The notes beneath the pieces are model-generated. The model worked only from the letters and a program-made list of their open reading frames with translations, did no database searches and was not told where the DNA came from. Shown piece by piece: positions 2,690 through 32,613 of a stretch of DNA of 34,994 nucleotides; positions within the stretch are counted from its first letter, which is position 1; each line of letters opens with the position of its first letter. Source of the DNA: Patescibacteria group bacterium (GTDB taxonomy: Bacteria; Patescibacteriota; Patescibacteriia; 2-12-FULL-60-25). A program made the position numbers and the translations under genes. The DNA lies in NCBI GenBank assembly GCA_029004215.1, contig JAQULH010000004.1:1-34994 (forward strand), in the 5' to 3' direction.

Positions 2690-3241
2690 ATGCCAAAACT
2701 TATCATTGGATTTGTCGGTCAGGCCGGGTCTGGCAAAGGTACGGCTGCCAACCTATTGCACGAAAAATACGGGGCAATTGTTTTTACTTTTAGCAGCATA
2801 CTGACAGATATCTTGAACCGATTATTTTTGCCTTCTTCCCGCGACAACCTGGTCAACATGTCCATTACACTGCGTCAGGGATTTGGACAGAACATCCTGG
2901 CCAAGGCCATGAGCCGGCAAATCGAAAACTCCACGGCTGAGATAGTGGTGGTTGATGGCATCCGGAGGCTTGAGGATATTGAGGATCTAAAACTTAACCC
3001 GGCCTTTCATTTTATCGAGATCGTAGTTGACCCCAAGACAAGGTTTGAACGGCTCAAGAAGCGCAACCAAAAACCAGGTGAAGCAGAAATGACTTGGGAA
3101 GGTTTCTTGGCTGTCGGTCAAATGGAGACCGAACTCACCATAGCCAAAGTGGCTGAGCAAGCTCAAATCAAAATCAACAATGATGGCAACATAAAGGCAT
3201 TAGAAGAAAAGCTGGATGAATTAGTGGCAAAGTTCAAATAG
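2690..3241 (+). CDS. P-loop nucleoside/nucleotide kinase-like ATPase
   Basis: The 183-residue protein opens with a Walker A loop GFVGQAGSGKGT (residues 7-18). A strand ending in VVVDGIRR (about residues 85-92) resembles the substrate region of dephospho-CoA kinase-like and deoxynucleotide kinase-like proteins, and a lid-like segment DPKTRFERLKKRNQKPGE lies at about 110-128. Family knowledge supports small-molecule phosphorylation but not the substrate. Because dUTPase, a ThyX-like protein and thymidylate kinase follow on the same strand, a (d)NMP kinase role is a reasonable inference; dephospho-CoA kinase or an archaeal-type adenylate kinase relative are alternatives. Its stop codon lies inside the first copy of a dispersed repeat. 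Confidence 0.8.
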   Translation: MPKLIIGFVGQAGSGKGTAANLLHEKYGAIVFTFSSILTDILNRLFLPSSRDNLVNMSITLRQGFGQNILAKAMSRQIENSTAEIVVVDGIRRLEDIEDLKLNPAFHFIEIVVDPKTRFERLKKRNQKPGEAEMTWEGFLAVGQMETELTIAKVAEQAQIKINNDGNIKALEEKLDELVAKFK

Positions 3242-3304
3242 CTTCGCGGATTCCTCACCTACGCTAATTAGCTTCGCAGATTCCTCGCCTACGCTCGGAA
3301 TGAC
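3239..3304 (+). repeat. Two tandem imperfect 30-36 bp repeats upstream of dut
   Basis: Copy 1 (about 3239-3268) begins at the TAG stop of the kinase gene. Copy 2 (3269-3304) follows directly. Both read TAGCTTCGC-R-GATTCCTC-R-CCTACGCT. Copy 2 is identical over 36 bp to the reverse complement of 12080-12115. The dut ATG starts 2 nt after copy 2. Confidence 0.9.
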
Positions 3305-5649: not shown

Positions 5650-5659
5650 AGATAGTTAG

Positions 5660-5689
5660 ACGTCACGCGGGGCACATAGTACGATATGG
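5660..5689 (+). repeat. Degenerate 7-nt periodic repeat before tmk
   Basis: From 5661 the sequence parses into heptamers mostly ending in AC (GTTAGAC, GTCACGC, GGGGCAC, ATAGTAC), matching the register and partly the sequence of the insertion inside tmk. It looks like a decayed copy and overlaps the tmk start region. Confidence 0.5.
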
Positions 5690-6519
5690 CCGATATGATA
5701 AAACGCGAGAAGAACGATGGCTTACACGCCATTATCGAGGGCATTGACGGTTCGGGTAAATCAACTGTTTTAAATGCCTGTCGCGCCTGGGCCGAAGACC
5801 GCGGCGTGACTTTTTTTAATGTGATTGAGTTCTCCGAACGTGAGGGCCGCTTGCCCAATGTGGAAGAGGTTGGCAAGGCAACAGGGCTCATCACGGCCGA
5901 GCCAACTTTTTGTTGGGTGGGTAAAGCCATCCGCGAAGAAATTATTGCCAAACATGAAAACAGTGACACGCGAAATGTGACACGCGAAACGTCAGACGGG
6001 TCACATGTCACGAGTCACGAGTCACGTTATACCGGATGGGAAACAGCCCAGGCTTTTGCTTTGGATAGATTGGTTCAGTTCCGACGGTTGGTCATCCCCT
6101 TTTTACAAAACCACCCTGAACGCATCATCTTTCAGGATCGCGGGCTTGGTTCATCCTTGGCCTATCAACCATTGCAAGACACGAGCCTGACAACAGGGCA
6201 GCTGGTTGAGCTGCCTGGCAATGCACAGACCCTGGCTTTCTCTCCAAGCTTATTAATATTGATCCGGGCAGAAGCCACGGCCACCATGGCGCGCCTGGCC
6301 CAAAGGACTGAAAAGCAGGATAAAGATATCTTCGAAGAACCCAGTTTCCAACAAAGGCTGGCCCAGCGATATTTATCGGACGATGTTTTAGGCCATTTTA
6401 GGCAAGCGGGCACTAAAATCGCGGAAGTTGACGGCAACCAGGGCATAGACCAAGTGGCCTCGGCTGTCAAAAGCTTGCTCTCGCAAAACCTACCCGATTT
6501 TGGTAGGATTAAGGCATAA
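5686..6519 (+). CDS. tmk: Thymidylate kinase-like protein with in-frame repeat insertion
   Basis: Phosphorylates dTMP to dTDP, completing the cluster begun by dut and the ThyX-like gene. The 277 residues carry a P-loop GIDGSGKST (19-27), an ETAQAFALDR segment (about 118-127) of the TMP kinase substrate region, and QDRGLGSS (149-156), the DR-type motif. It is longer than the usual 205-230 residues. Part of the excess is residues ~93-114, encoded by nine consecutive heptamers at 5963-6025; 63 nt keeps the frame. The inserted peptide is rich in S, T, R, H, D and E and probably forms a surface loop. A later ATG at 5695 is an alternative start. The assignment among deoxynucleoside-monophosphate kinases is inferred from the motifs and context. 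Confidence 0.88.
   Translation: MADMIKREKNDGLHAIIEGIDGSGKSTVLNACRAWAEDRGVTFFNVIEFSEREGRLPNVEEVGKATGLITAEPTFCWVGKAIREEIIAKHENSDTRNVTRETSDGSHVTSHESRYTGWETAQAFALDRLVQFRRLVIPFLQNHPERIIFQDRGLGSSLAYQPLQDTSLTTGQLVELPGNAQTLAFSPSLLILIRAEATATMARLAQRTEKQDKDIFEEPSFQQRLAQRYLSDDVLGHFRQAGTKIAEVDGNQGIDQVASAVKSLLSQNLPDFGRIKA
5963..6025 (+). repeat. Nine-unit heptamer repeat inside tmk
   Basis: The stretch parses without gaps into nine 7-nt units: GTGACAC, GCGAAAT, GTGACAC, GCGAAAC, GTCAGAC, GGGTCAC, ATGTCAC, GAGTCAC, GAGTCAC. Left-hand units (GTGAC) are reverse complements of the right-hand ones (GTCAC), so the whole is imperfectly palindromic. It is an open, in-frame part of the kinase CDS. Confidence 0.85.
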
Positions 6520-12032: not shown

Positions 12033-12079
12033 GCGCGCGAGAGTAACATAATAAGCAATAAACGTCCAACGTCACCTCC

Positions 12080-12115
12080 GTCATTCCGAGCGTAGGCGAG
12101 GAATCTGCGAAGCTA
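12080..12115 (-). repeat. 36-bp dispersed repeat, inverted copy
   Basis: The reverse complement of this stretch is identical over all 36 bp to 3269-3304. It lies between miaB and the 12123 small ORF, 7 bp before that ATG. At both sites the repeat is immediately upstream of a plus-strand start codon, but in opposite orientation. Confidence 0.92.
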
Positions 12116-12122
12116 GTGAACT

Positions 12123-18059: not shown

Positions 18060-18071
18060 AATATTGGGATA

Positions 18072-18167
18072 GCGAATGTCGAATATCGAATGTCGAATAT
18101 CGATGGATCATGTTCGAGATTCGATATTCAGCGAGCTCAGTGCGAGCGGATATTCGATATTCGATGG
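18072..18167. repeat. TCGAATA-type 7-nt periodic repeat block between infB and trxA
   Basis: From 18072 the sequence parses as GCGAATG, TCGAATA, TCGAATG, TCGAATA, TCGATGG, ATCATGT, TCGAGAT, TCGATAT with exact 7-nt spacing. After an interruption, TCGATAT and TCGATGG recur at 18154-18167. Left units (CGAATA) and right units (ATTCG) are partly complementary, so it can fold on itself. It fills almost the whole intergenic space. Confidence 0.85.
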
Positions 18168-21997: not shown

Positions 21998-22921
21998 TCA
22001 CTGCCAGCAGTGGAGCTGCTGGAAGATCATGTTGGCAGAGAGCTGAGTCTCACAGTTGCCATGGAGGACGCCGCCTGAGTAGCTGCCCACGTAGGCATCA
22101 CCAACGCAGACAATATACTCGTCAGTGGCAGGGCAACTGGTGGCGGTTGGGCAGCGGTACGTCCAGGTCGTCAGGACAGTGTTGCCTGAGGTAGTGAACC
22201 CCGGCTCGAAGGTGATATCCAGGCCAACCGTGGCTGCCACAGGCGAGGCAATGATCATCTTCTCGCCAGGATTGGCAAACTTCCAGGCCGTGTAGTCTTG
22301 CGGCGTACCCGCGTCTGGGACTGTGAAGGTGTACTTGCCAAAGACTCCCAGCACCTTGCCCGCAGGCGGATCGTCGCTGACAGTGATGACAATTGTTGCC
22401 CAACCTGGCTTGCCATACTTCTGGCAATCGGTCAGCACAACAGCGTCTTCCTGGGCAACATCCGGCAGCTCGACATCAGGCGCAGCTTCGGGCTGCACGT
22501 CAGCCTCAGCCTCTGGCTCGGCTTCGGGCGATGCCTCTGGTCCTGCTTCAGGCTCGGCTTCGGGTGACGAAGCTTCGGCCTCGACCTCTGCTTCAGGCGC
22601 AGCTTCGGGCTGGACCTCTGGCTCGGCTTCGGGTGAGGCCTCCTTGTCCGACCCAGCGTCCTTTGGGCCTGCTTCAGCCTCGGGTTTGGCGTCGACCGAG
22701 GCTTCTGCCTCGTGCTTGACATCAGGCTGGCCTGCCTCGACATCGTGCTTGACGTCGGGCTTGGGCTCTTGCTGAGCATCAGGGAGCTTGTCAGGCTTGG
22801 AATCCTGGATTCCCGAATCTGCGATGCCTGGGGAGAAGGTGAACTCGTCACCACCGCAACCCAGGATGGATGACACCAAAAGCGTCGCAATGGAAAGAAC
22901 TGCCCATATGATTTTGTTCAT
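21998..22921 (-). CDS. Secreted lipoprotein with Asp/Glu/Pro/Ala linker (paralogue 1)
   Basis: 307 residues. A lipoprotein signal peptide ends in a lipobox (VSSILGC, lipid-anchored Cys22), then GGDEF and a long acidic, Pro/Ala-rich linker (about 30-165) with repeats such as PEAEPEA, probably a disordered spacer off the cell surface. The C-terminal domain (about 168-307) has six cysteines and the conserved run PGEKMIIASPVAATVGLDI, then FEPGFTTSGN and CPATDEYIVCVGD, likely disulphide-bonded beta structure. Family unknown; such linkers are familiar from Myxococcota-type lipoproteins, so transfer is possible but unproven. ATG 22921 is chosen because GAGGAG lies 6 nt upstream and it aligns with the paralogue start; ATG 22927 would abut the Shine-Dalgarno. 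Confidence 0.85.
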   Translation of the reverse strand: MNKIIWAVLSIATLLVSSILGCGGDEFTFSPGIADSGIQDSKPDKLPDAQQEPKPDVKHDVEAGQPDVKHEAEASVDAKPEAEAGPKDAGSDKEASPEAEPEVQPEAAPEAEVEAEASSPEAEPEAGPEASPEAEPEAEADVQPEAAPDVELPDVAQEDAVVLTDCQKYGKPGWATIVITVSDDPPAGKVLGVFGKYTFTVPDAGTPQDYTAWKFANPGEKMIIASPVAATVGLDITFEPGFTTSGNTVLTTWTYRCPTATSCPATDEYIVCVGDAYVGSYSGGVLHGNCETQLSANMIFQQLHCWQ

Positions 22922-22967
22922 CTTCATCTCCTCATATGCGATGGTTGACCGGTATCTGTATACTTAT

Positions 22968-23057: not shown

Positions 23058-23798
23058 CTACTGCTTCAACGTGCAGTGGACTTGCTGCTTGTAGTGCACG
23101 TCCATCTGGTAGTCGCAGTCTTTCACGCAGTTGTCGCCCGAACACTTGCCCACGAAGTTCTTGCCGGCGCAGACCAGGTACTCGTCCGTGGCAGGACAGC
23201 CCGTTTGGTCGCAGCGGATGTCCCAGGTGGACAGGTCGTTGTTGCCCGGAGTTGTGAACCCGGGCTCAAACACGATGTCCAAACCGATGACGGCTGCCGT
23301 GGGCATGGCCACGATCAGCTTCTCGCCTTGGTTGCCGAACTTCCACGGCGCATAGTCCTGCGGAATACCCGAGTCCAGGATGGCGAACGAGTACTTGCCG
23401 TACACGGCCAGGACCTGGCTCAAAGGCACTTCGTCGTTGACCCTGATGACCACGGTCACGAAACCGATATTGCCCCACTGCTGGCAATCGCCCAGTGGTG
23501 AGATCTCCTCCACTGCATCTGGGAGCTCGACGTCGGGCGATGCCTCGGGCAACGAAGCTTCTGCCTCGACCCCTGCTTCAGTCGAAGCTTCGGGCAACGA
23601 GGTTTCCTGGTCCATCCCAGTGTCCTTGGCGTCAGCGTCAGGCTTGTTGGCGTCGTGCTGCTTGTCGGGCTTGGCATCCTCGACACTGGAATCGCCTACT
23701 TCGGAAGGAGCAGCAGTGAAATCTTTTCCACCGCACCCCAGGATGAATGACGCCAAAAGCGCCACCACGGAAAGAACTGCCCACGTAAACTTGTTCAT
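23058..23798 (-). CDS. Secreted lipoprotein with acidic linker (paralogue 2)
   Basis: 246 residues, a paralogue of the downstream gene. Lipobox SFILGC places the lipidated cysteine at residue 22. The linker (about 30-95) is shorter and less repetitive (EASLPEASPDVELPD is shared). The C-terminal domain matches its neighbour point for point: GDCQQWGNIGFVTVVIRV, LAVYGKYSFAILDSGIPQDY, NQGEKLIVAMPTAAVIGLDI, FEPGFTTPGNN, CPATDEYLVCAG. Extra cysteines near the end (KCSGDNCVKDCDYQ) are not in paralogue 1. GAGGAG lies 7 nt before the ATG at 23798; a GTG at 23801 is the alternative. Same-strand tandem order with shared leader and terminator indicates segmental duplication followed by linker divergence. 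Confidence 0.85.
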   Translation of the reverse strand: MNKFTWAVLSVVALLASFILGCGGKDFTAAPSEVGDSSVEDAKPDKQHDANKPDADAKDTGMDQETSLPEASTEAGVEAEASLPEASPDVELPDAVEEISPLGDCQQWGNIGFVTVVIRVNDEVPLSQVLAVYGKYSFAILDSGIPQDYAPWKFGNQGEKLIVAMPTAAVIGLDIVFEPGFTTPGNNDLSTWDIRCDQTGCPATDEYLVCAGKNFVGKCSGDNCVKDCDYQMDVHYKQQVHCTLKQ

Positions 23799-23847
23799 CA
23801 CGCATCTCCTCTTGTGCGATGGTTGACTGCAAACTGTGTACTTCTCT

Positions 23848-23899: not shown

Positions 23900-24964
23900 T
23901 TATTCTTCTTCGTTGCCCATTTTACCGCTTTTGACAGCTGCTATTATGACATCTAAACCACCATCTAAGATGTTTTGGATGTTGTGCCAAGATTTTTTGA
24001 TGCGATGGTCAGTGATCCTGTCTTGAGGATAGTTGTAAGTGCGGATCTTTTCCGAACGATCACCAGAACCAATCTGCGACCTGCGTTCAGCATCCAGCTC
24101 TTGCCTGCGTTTTTGTTCTTGATGCTCCCAAATCCTGGCGCGCAAAATTTGCATGGCGCGTTCGCGGTTCTGCTGTTGTGACCGCTCATCCTGGCAGTTA
24201 ACAACCGTGTTGGTCGGTATGTGAGTGATCCTGACTGCGGAGTAAGTCGTGTTCACAGATTGCCCGCCCTTGCCGCCGGCGCAGAAAGTATCAATGCGTA
24301 AATCTTTTGATTCGATTTTTAATTCCTCTTCCTCCAGTTCCGGCAAGACAGCCACTGTGACAGTCGAGGTGTGAATCCTCCCCTGCTTCTCGGTTTCTGG
24401 CACGCGCTGTACGCGGTGGACACCCATCTCAGTTTTTAAAGTGCCATAAGCATTGGTGCCCTGCACATAAAAAATAATTTCTTTGTAACCACCCTGCTCT
24501 GCCAAAGACTGGCTGGCCAAAGAAGTCTTCCAGTTCTTGCGCTCGGCAAAACGCATAATCATACGGAAAATATCAGCTGCAAAAATAGCCGCTTCTTCGC
24601 CGCCAACTCCGGCGCGGATTTCTATGATGGCGTTGGCATGGTCATATGGCCCGGGCGGGACAAGCGACAGTTCAAAAGCTTCTTTGGCCGCCTCAAAATC
24701 TGACTTGAGGTGGGGCAATTCAGCTTCGGCCAATGATCTCATTTCTTCATCATCTGAACCAGCCGTTTGCTCCGCTTCTTCCAGAGCTGCCTTCAAGGCT
24801 GCAAATTTTTCGCCGCATTCGACTAAAATTTTTGCTTCTGAATAGGCACGTGAAACATCCCTGACTTTTTCAGGGCTCGAGAGGAAGGCCGGGTCAGCCA
24901 TCTCATTTTCCAGCTTGACCAACCTTTCTCTGGCTTGTTTTAGACTATCCATCAAATCAGACAT
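23900..24964 (-). CDS. prfA: Peptide chain release factor 1
   Basis: Recognises UAA and UAG and triggers peptide release. The codon-recognition region [18 protein letters not shown] contains the RF1-type PxT tripeptide as PET (189-191; PAT or PVT are commoner), and the hydrolysis motif GGQ is at 233-235 in [12 protein letters not shown]. The N-terminal coiled region and a C-terminal [15 protein letters not shown]-type segment are normal; length 354. UGA is also used as a stop in this window, so an RF2 must be encoded elsewhere. The prmC methyltransferase gene, often adjacent, is not here. The ATG follows by 6 nt a TACTAT hexamer formed at the edge of the GTAACGA repeat block. Confidence 0.97.
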
Positions 24965-24970
24965 AACAAA

Positions 24971-25059
24971 ATAGTAACGAGTAAAAGGTAACGAGTAAAT
25001 AGTCCACTCCGTTACCCGCTGCCATTACCCGTTACTTTTAACTTTTTACTCGTTACTAT
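24971..25059. repeat. GTAACGA 7-nt periodic inverted repeat between rpmE and prfA
   Basis: The left half parses in sevens from 24974 (GTAACGA, GTAAAAG, GTAACGA, GTAAATA). Its first 16 bp (24971-24986) are perfectly inverted at 25044-25059. The middle adds further GTTACCC/GTTACTT units. The block spans the whole intergenic region and supplies a TACTAT hexamer 6 nt before the prfA ATG. A related block lies at 32537-32613. Confidence 0.9.
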
Positions 25060-31757: not shown

Positions 31758-32533
31758 ATTACAGGCTTAAACCTGCGTCCCATTATGACTTTAAATTTCT
31801 GGGGTTCGATCGAAACTGAAAAACGAAAACCACTGACTGCATAGCGGTCAGCATGCCCTTCCATGGGTTGGGTGGAAAATATTTGCCCGGATTTGAAGGT
31901 CACCTTGGTCTGAGCTGACGTAAAGGATTTAAGTTTTGTCCAAAGGCGTGATTTGATATGCGTACCATGGGGAGTGATGACTGCTTCCAGCAAACCGTCT
32001 TGGGCATCAGCCAAAGTATCCCCCAGGCTGGCCACACGGCCCAAGTTACGGATCTCAAGAGTCCCACCGCTCATTAAAGTCAGATGAAAGGTATTATCAA
32101 CAAAAAGCGAAGCGGTCGTATTTTCAAAGATAACTTCGGAAAGGAAATAGCGGTCATTTAGTTTACCAACGTCCAAAGTTTCGATCAGTCGGGCGCCCAA
32201 GATATCACAAGCGGCCAGGCCGGTCGGGACATTCAAAAGCCGGGCAATGCCTGACGGTTCGGCCAAAGGAATATAGCCCATGGTCACCGGTAGCTCCGGC
32301 AAGAACCACATGACCTTGTCGAGCGTTGTATCGTTGCCAACCACCACGACATTTTTAACCCCGTTGCGCACAAAATCCTCAACTAATTCTTTGGCATTCC
32401 TAAATAAAGTCAGCCGGCCGATGCGCCCGCTCAAACCCAAAGAGGCCAAACGCGTTTCCAAAGCATCCAAAGTATCTTGGTATTGGCTGTCTACCAAAAA
32501 ATCATCGTAAATGTAGGCGTAAGCCGGATTCAT
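31754..32533 (-). CDS. Diverged diacylglycerol-kinase-like protein
   Basis: 259 residues with the layout of the DAGK/sphingosine-kinase catalytic superfamily. NVVVVGNDTTLDKVMWFL (61-78) occupies the place of the nucleotide-binding GGDGTLNEV motif, followed by VTMGYIPLAEPSGIARLLNVP, matching the LGIIPLGTGNDFAR-type segment, and a beta-rich C-terminal half (residues ~110-259). GGDGT is GNDTT and the glycine-rich second motif has AEPSG for GTGND, so lipid kinase activity is uncertain; it may bind a different ligand or be non-catalytic. The ATG lies against a GTAACGA repeat block. It is downstream of bactofilin, possibly one transcript. Confidence 0.72.
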   Translation of the reverse strand: MNPAYAYIYDDFLVDSQYQDTLDALETRLASLGLSGRIGRLTLFRNAKELVEDFVRNGVKNVVVVGNDTTLDKVMWFLPELPVTMGYIPLAEPSGIARLLNVPTGLAACDILGARLIETLDVGKLNDRYFLSEVIFENTTASLFVDNTFHLTLMSGGTLEIRNLGRVASLGDTLADAQDGLLEAVITPHGTHIKSRLWTKLKSFTSAQTKVTFKSGQIFSTQPMEGHADRYAVSGFRFSVSIEPQKFKVIMGRRFKPVI

Positions 32534-32536
32534 ATC

Positions 32537-32613
32537 AGTAACGGGTAACGAGTAAAAAGTAACGAGACATGAGGCTAATCACTCGTTACTCGTTACTAGC
32601 CACTCGTTACTTT
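32537..32613. repeat. GTAACGA 7-nt periodic repeat between the bactofilin and DAGK-like genes
   Basis: From 32537 units read GTAACGG, GTAACGA, GTAAAAA, GTAACGA with 7-nt spacing. On the right TCGTTAC, TCGTTAC, TAGCCAC, TCGTTAC are the inverted form. The bactofilin TAA stop (32609 to 32607) is made from a GTTACT unit of the block. Same family as 24971-25059. Confidence 0.9.

Follow-up and report, generated by a model that had tools for sequence, protein, structure and literature searches.

Origin of the heptamer tract in tmk

A run of 7-nt units lies inside the gene for thymidylate kinase (tmk) of a Patescibacteria genome (G000; 1.195 Mb in 65 contigs), and it raises the question of what such a tract is and how it came to occupy an open reading frame. 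We analysed a window of 34,994 nucleotides, contig C4 of this genome, together with a set of eight congeners (G001-G008), of which G002 is the sister, or closest relative (assembly 84% complete). The statistics of repeat arrays given below rest on stretches of sequence, amounting to about 400 kb of G000, and on genome searches.

Two inverted heptamer arms within the tmk frame

The first-pass annotation had described nine like 7-nt units in tandem. The period of 7 was confirmed for positions 5963-6027, but the units turned out to form two inverted arms of different heptamers (Table 1), GTGAC of the left arm pairing with GTCAC of the right, with a GG offset between the arms. In the best 63-nt window of the tmk coding sequence, 37 of 56 positions match at an offset of 7, compared with a mean of 21.7 (sd 1.9) and a maximum of 30 among 5000 codon shuffles of the gene. 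The frame is unbroken, as had been proposed: the tract reads SDTRNVTRETSDGSHVTSHESR in the tmk frame and is stop-free, and an example of the peptide predicted from the insert is NVTRETSDGSHVTSHESR. A decayed copy suggested at 5660-5689, in contrast, was not supported, because its 8 matches in 23 positions at period 7 were equalled by 21% of the 30-nt windows tested across the whole stretch.

The tmk copy folds poorly by itself (z -1.9, with 13 of 200 shuffles equally good). If the left arm mirrored the right arm perfectly, TGA would appear in all of its frames, and the actual left arm avoids TGA by means of its GCGAAA units; the weak fold is thus possibly due to the reading frame, which forbids the perfect mirror. 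The AlphaFold model of Tmk (mean pLDDT 47) was too poor to confirm the proposed surface loop.

Table 1. Positions of tmk, the parts of its hairpin and the other heptamer palindromes in the window
Feature	Position	Strand	Basis and remarks
tmk, thymidylate kinase CDS carrying the insert	5686..6519	+	277 aa; PF02223 54 bits (cut-off 27), TIGR00041 7.8e-18
Left arm, 5 heptamers GTGACAC GCGAAAT GTGACAC GCGAAAC GTCAGAC	5963..5997	+	Sequence; aligns with seven dispersed copies
Right arm, 4 heptamers GTCACAT GTCACGA GTCACGA GTCACGT	6000..6027	+	In inverted orientation to the left arm
Full extent of the match to covariance model R1 (GTGAC/GTCAC hairpin family)	5952..6036	+	E 3.6e-16, not independent, as the model was built with the tmk copy included
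Intergenic heptamer palindrome, ATTCGAT/ATATCGA type	18069..18165	.	Fold z -4.8
Intergenic heptamer palindrome, GTAACGA type	24973..25058	.	Fold z -5.5
Heptamer palindrome, GTAACGA type	32537..32612	.	Fold z -4.4

Comparison with the congeners

Tmk of the sister G002 shares 97% identity with that of G000 and has EIIAKHDGDGQRYTGW in the position of EIIAKHENSDTRNVTRETSDGSHVTSHESRYTGW in G000. The net gain of G000 tmk over the sister is 54 nt, equivalent to 18 codons in frame, which replaces the 63 nt given at first for the length of the insert. No such element was found in Tmk of G003, G004, G006, G007 or G008, and the loop in these five congeners is shorter, as in G002, rather than being occupied by an unrelated sequence of equal length. 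Because the sister and five other congeners are without it, the tmk tract is an insertion, and it is most simply dated after the split from G002.

The same Tmk loop holds a long palindromic tract of its own in G005, made of GTAACGC and GCAACGC units, and a short GGACGTG run of its own in G001. The simplest account is that G000, G005 and G001 gained their tracts independently in a tolerant loop, a reading based on the relatedness order implied by Tmk identity. The presence of heptamer tracts at one place in three congeners might also be taken as a sign of a selected regulatory or protein element, for instance a flexible loop or an RNase III site tuning tmk expression, instead of a tolerated parasite. 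Most congeners however are without the tract, the same families occur in unrelated genes and spacers, and loops of TsaD are reused likewise with different palindromes, so that we regard such selection as highly improbable.

A dispersed family of GTGAC/GTCAC hairpins

When G000 was searched with two right-arm units, 31 near matches were obtained, whereas the reversed control yielded 3. Eight copies could be aligned across both arms together with a conserved core, ACGTC...TCTGACGGGTCAC, and the family consensus folds into a hairpin with 18 base pairs, where runs of 4-5 paired bases alternate with 2x2 internal loops, one step per heptamer. Since few pairs (2 of 18) show compensatory change, this consensus rests mainly on both arms being conserved. 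Matches to the covariance model numbered about ten in G000 and three in G002, with none in G003; two loci are common to G000 and G002 by descent, and the copy at C21:6041 represents a second in-frame gain, of 51 nt, in another gene. The tmk tract is one of about ten copies of this dispersed, two-armed hairpin family, and together with the repeats of like kind around S23/IVP genes, described below, it suggests a family of small mobile elements able to settle in working genes. A hairpin with inverted heptamer arms entered a permissive loop of tmk, in frame and stop-free, and its translation is predicted to add about 18 residues to the protein.

Local replication slippage, by which a chance heptamer was expanded within tmk with no mobile element involved, agrees with the regular period of 7 and with the number of units, which differs among copies, and slippage may well tune the copy number within arms. 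As the source of the tract it is very unlikely, since the arms are inverted and composed of two different units, the two-armed core recurs at about ten unrelated loci, and the tmk loop of the sister holds no precursor heptamer; an origin by slippage alone was rejected on account of the dispersed two-armed copies. The palindromes also resemble REP elements moved by RAYT, a Y1 transposase (PMC3733652), in being short and dispersed, many of them intergenic. Unlike the REP system, they have periodic heptamer arms that are different for each family, and no PF01797 (Y1 transposase) protein was detectable in G000; this explanation was rejected for lack of the transposase and is highly improbable.

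Heptamer elements in other genes and spacers

When about 400 kb of G000 was scanned for tandem arrays at the same stringency as that of the tmk tract, 16 arrays had a period of 7. Periods 9 and 12 were represented by two arrays and one array, respectively, and period 14 (doubled 7) by six rows, whereas arrays of period 4-6, 8, 10, 11 or 13 were absent from these sequences. The rarer class of period 9 (TAAAGTCCT, GTCCTTAAG) was observed at L063:16030-16069, L068:7104-7146 and L072:10995-11031.

Three further heptamer palindromes were located in the window (Table 1). The first lies between two minus-strand genes (ends 18059 and 18176; infB- and thioredoxin-like) and is not present in G002, the difference being 99 nt. 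The second fills the gap between genes ending or starting at 24964 and 25060, a site where G002 has a different palindrome, and the third is situated between the genes at 32533 and 32607, overlapping the end of the second gene by a few bases.

Beyond the tmk family, other heptamer elements also were found in coding sequences, a check that the first-pass annotation had proposed: within 398 kb of G000, 11 of 24 period-7 arrays were inside genes with Pfam support, nine in number (tmk, ksgA, metG, a Mur ligase gene, znuA, a glycosyltransferase gene, tsaE, tsaD with three arrays, and a DUF4012 gene). TsaD of G000 has 409 residues including three heptamer inserts, compared with about 355 residues in G003. 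The TsaD inserts of G005, G001, G008 and G002 fall in the same loops, some of them derived from other palindrome families, and permissive loops are thus reused repeatedly. Such inserts are tolerated with the help of a simple property of the period. Because 7 leaves a remainder of 1 on division by 3, successive copies of a heptamer pass through all three phases, and the array is therefore free of stops either in every reading frame or in none; for about half of all heptamers this holds on both strands.

Two side observations concern sites at which the sister has a different palindrome. In the comparison of several sites, among them 5656-5686 and 24974-25058, with L096 and L129, the sister has another palindrome family where G000 has a heptamer element or other spacer, as though palindromes returned to spacers and loops as targets. 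In tsaD of G002 (L223), a different translated palindrome, TPTPLPHGRRGANTLSPALWG, is present in the loop that holds a heptamer element in G000.

Association of heptamer arms with S23 genes

Comparison of G000 with G002 at C3:67851 revealed an insertion that consists of an open reading frame of the 23S-rRNA IVP family (PF05635) inside two inverted GTAACGA arrays. Each of the seven PF05635 genes of G000 is flanked by inverted repeats, and at six of the seven these are heptamer arrays, each locus with its own unit; the heptamers, such as GTAACGA, CGAATCT and GTACAAC, are of the same kinds as those of the solo hairpins in this genome. For a collection scan, we employed a five-sequence alignment of PF05635, a 19-sequence alignment being too diverse. 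Among 47 PF05635 loci in seven genomes of the genus, the inverted-repeat score was above the 99th percentile of the controls at 46, and its median was 24, compared with 9 in a set of 150 control ORFs. Both flanks showed period 7 at 20 of the 47 loci and at none of the 150 controls. At the level of the phylum (29 loci from 29 genomes), the median score was 20 against 10 for mispaired flanks, and 15 loci exceeded the 99th percentile; the flanks were of period 7 in 15 cases and of period 8 in 5. Strong period 7 was also detected at 8 of 11 PF05635 loci in IMG/VR, for example as AACGTTC arrays on both flanks, a count that stands without a control set and includes some loci near-identical to each other. 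Heptamer arms are thus strongly associated with PF05635 genes, and the arms of the hairpins are common to S23 units, not to any known transposase. At two loci a relative lacks the gene together with both arms at the matching site, G002 in one case and G003 in the other; target-site duplication and exact boundaries could not be resolved at 86% identity.

Period 9 is present at some PF05635 loci as well. A minor subclass of these loci (L148, L162, L163, L164, L172 and L183) carries short, non-heptamer inverted repeats with a GCGCGCA-like core.

Taking the hairpins and the S23 genes together, the full mobile element would consist of a heptamer array, an S23/23S-rRNA-IVP gene (four-helix bundle, PF05635) and an inverted heptamer array, of which the solo hairpins are most likely the ORF-less, non-autonomous form. 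The S23 protein would recognise the hairpin in trans and aid its movement, and formation of the hairpin may keep the heptamer matched in both arms of each locus. We infer in this way that the ORF-less hairpins descend from S23 units and move with S23 help, and it is probable, in our judgement, that the tmk tract, as a copy of its family, belongs to such ORF-less mobile elements of the S23 type, served by the S23 protein in trans.

The hairpins could instead be independent repeats, REP- or MITE-like and propagated by host replication or by another enzyme, at which S23 genes land as at safe sites. The majority of hairpins are without a gene, the assembly of G000 contains no PF05635 copy with the GTGAC/GTCAC arms of the tmk family (only another genome of the phylum, L195, showed a GTCACGA-like flank at an S23 gene), and no PF05635 match was detected in the 84% complete assembly of G002, though this has heptamer arrays. 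This alternative is nevertheless unlikely, given the matched arms at nearly every PF05635 locus, each with its own heptamer, and the joint absence of arms and gene in a relative at two loci. Among strict arrays, only about a third (34 of 109) have a clearly complementary array within 90 nt, where about 5% are expected, and this result, like the poor fold of the tmk copy by itself, was counted against the reading of the hairpins as S23 elements.

With respect to gene number, G003, which has neither PF05635 nor a reverse transcriptase, contains one period-7 array in 360 kb, compared with 15 in 100 kb of G008, a genome with 15 PF05635 matches; over all nine genomes the correlation of array density with PF05635 gene number is weak and not significant (rho 0.61, p 0.08). 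Exact 12-mers common to S23 arms and solo arrays are more frequent within than between genomes (G000, G001), by only about two-fold, and we gave this excess no weight. A retroelement with an Avd-like four-helix protein was also considered and was not supported, since PF00078 (reverse transcriptase) was not found in G000, G004, G006 or G008, all of which have PF05635 genes.

As a more tentative generalization, which we judge to be somewhat short of an even chance, S23/IVP proteins may define a widespread, hitherto unrecognised class of mobile elements, free of transposase and reverse transcriptase, with inverted heptamer arms, each copy having its own heptamer, alike in both arms; rRNA intervening sequences would be a special case, and the ORF-less hairpins would enter protein genes in frame. 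If S23 genes are indeed the coding part of a heptamer-armed mobile element, many unexplained heptamer repeats and insertions in protein loops would have a common cause, the mobility and the meaning of period 7 would become testable, and the small genomes of Patescibacteria would show selfish hairpins reshaping essential, still-working proteins such as Tmk and TsaD. In a literature search of partial coverage, heptamer repeats, Patescibacteria and S23/four-helix-bundle genes were not found linked in any paper.

Comparison with known systems

Repeats of short units are familiar from cyanobacteria as STRRs, and heptanucleotide hairpins occur in the tRNA-Leu intron of Nostoc, where the heptamers are paired in the stem; the present hairpins are alike in that 7-nt units pair in the stem. 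The TAACTGA arrays of Beggiatoaceae and others consist of an invariant unit, repeated directly except in one inverted case (PMC4679880). The arrays described here share with them a unit of exactly 7 nt and a dispersed location, but differ in that the units vary by locus and the arms are inverted.

The Rickettsia palindromic elements (RPEs) are short, palindromic selfish DNA of several families, which reside in frame in metabolic genes, are apparently translated, measure about 150 bp and encode a conserved peptide, according to the summary in PMC10969869 (Ogata et al. 2000, 2002). The likeness to RPEs noted at the outset, with the distinctive period of 7, gained support from the absence of the tract in congeners and from copies in other coding sequences. 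In both systems a palindromic element is in frame in a protein gene (54 nt in tmk and 51 nt in the second gene here); in contrast to the size and the conserved peptide given for RPEs, the heptamer arms vary by family and only the period is common. The tmk insert thus appears to work like an RPE, being likened to it by behaviour and not by sequence.

The rRNA intervening sequences (IVSs) of Coxiella and Leptospira carry an S23p/IVP gene flanked by terminal inverted repeats, which pair into a long stem; they are situated in rRNA helices and excised by RNase III, their mobility has been suspected for decades, and the origin and role of S23-bearing IVSs have been called unclear (PMC4990558). The full-length relatives of the tmk hairpin, with an S23p/IVP gene between stem-forming terminal inverted repeats, resemble rRNA intervening sequences relocated outside rRNA. 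They differ from IVSs in their heptamer-array arms, in having ORF-less forms in protein genes, and in the location of the seven PF05635 loci of G000 outside rRNA genes; no rRNA was found at these seven loci, but LSU rRNA itself is missing from the G000 assembly despite its completeness rating of 95.6%, so that copies within it may have escaped detection. The tmk insert is far too short for an S23p/IVP gene, and would be at most an ORF-less form; we class it neither as an RPE nor as an IVS.

Other features of the window

Another short repeat family, with the core GCGTAGGCGAGGAATC / GATTCCTCACCTACGC, was observed at 3239-3295 and 12078-12118, in both cases as extra sequence in G000 relative to G002. 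Two adjacent, similar genes at 21998-22927 and 23058-23801 encode probable lipoproteins with linkers rich in Glu, Pro, Ala and Asp.
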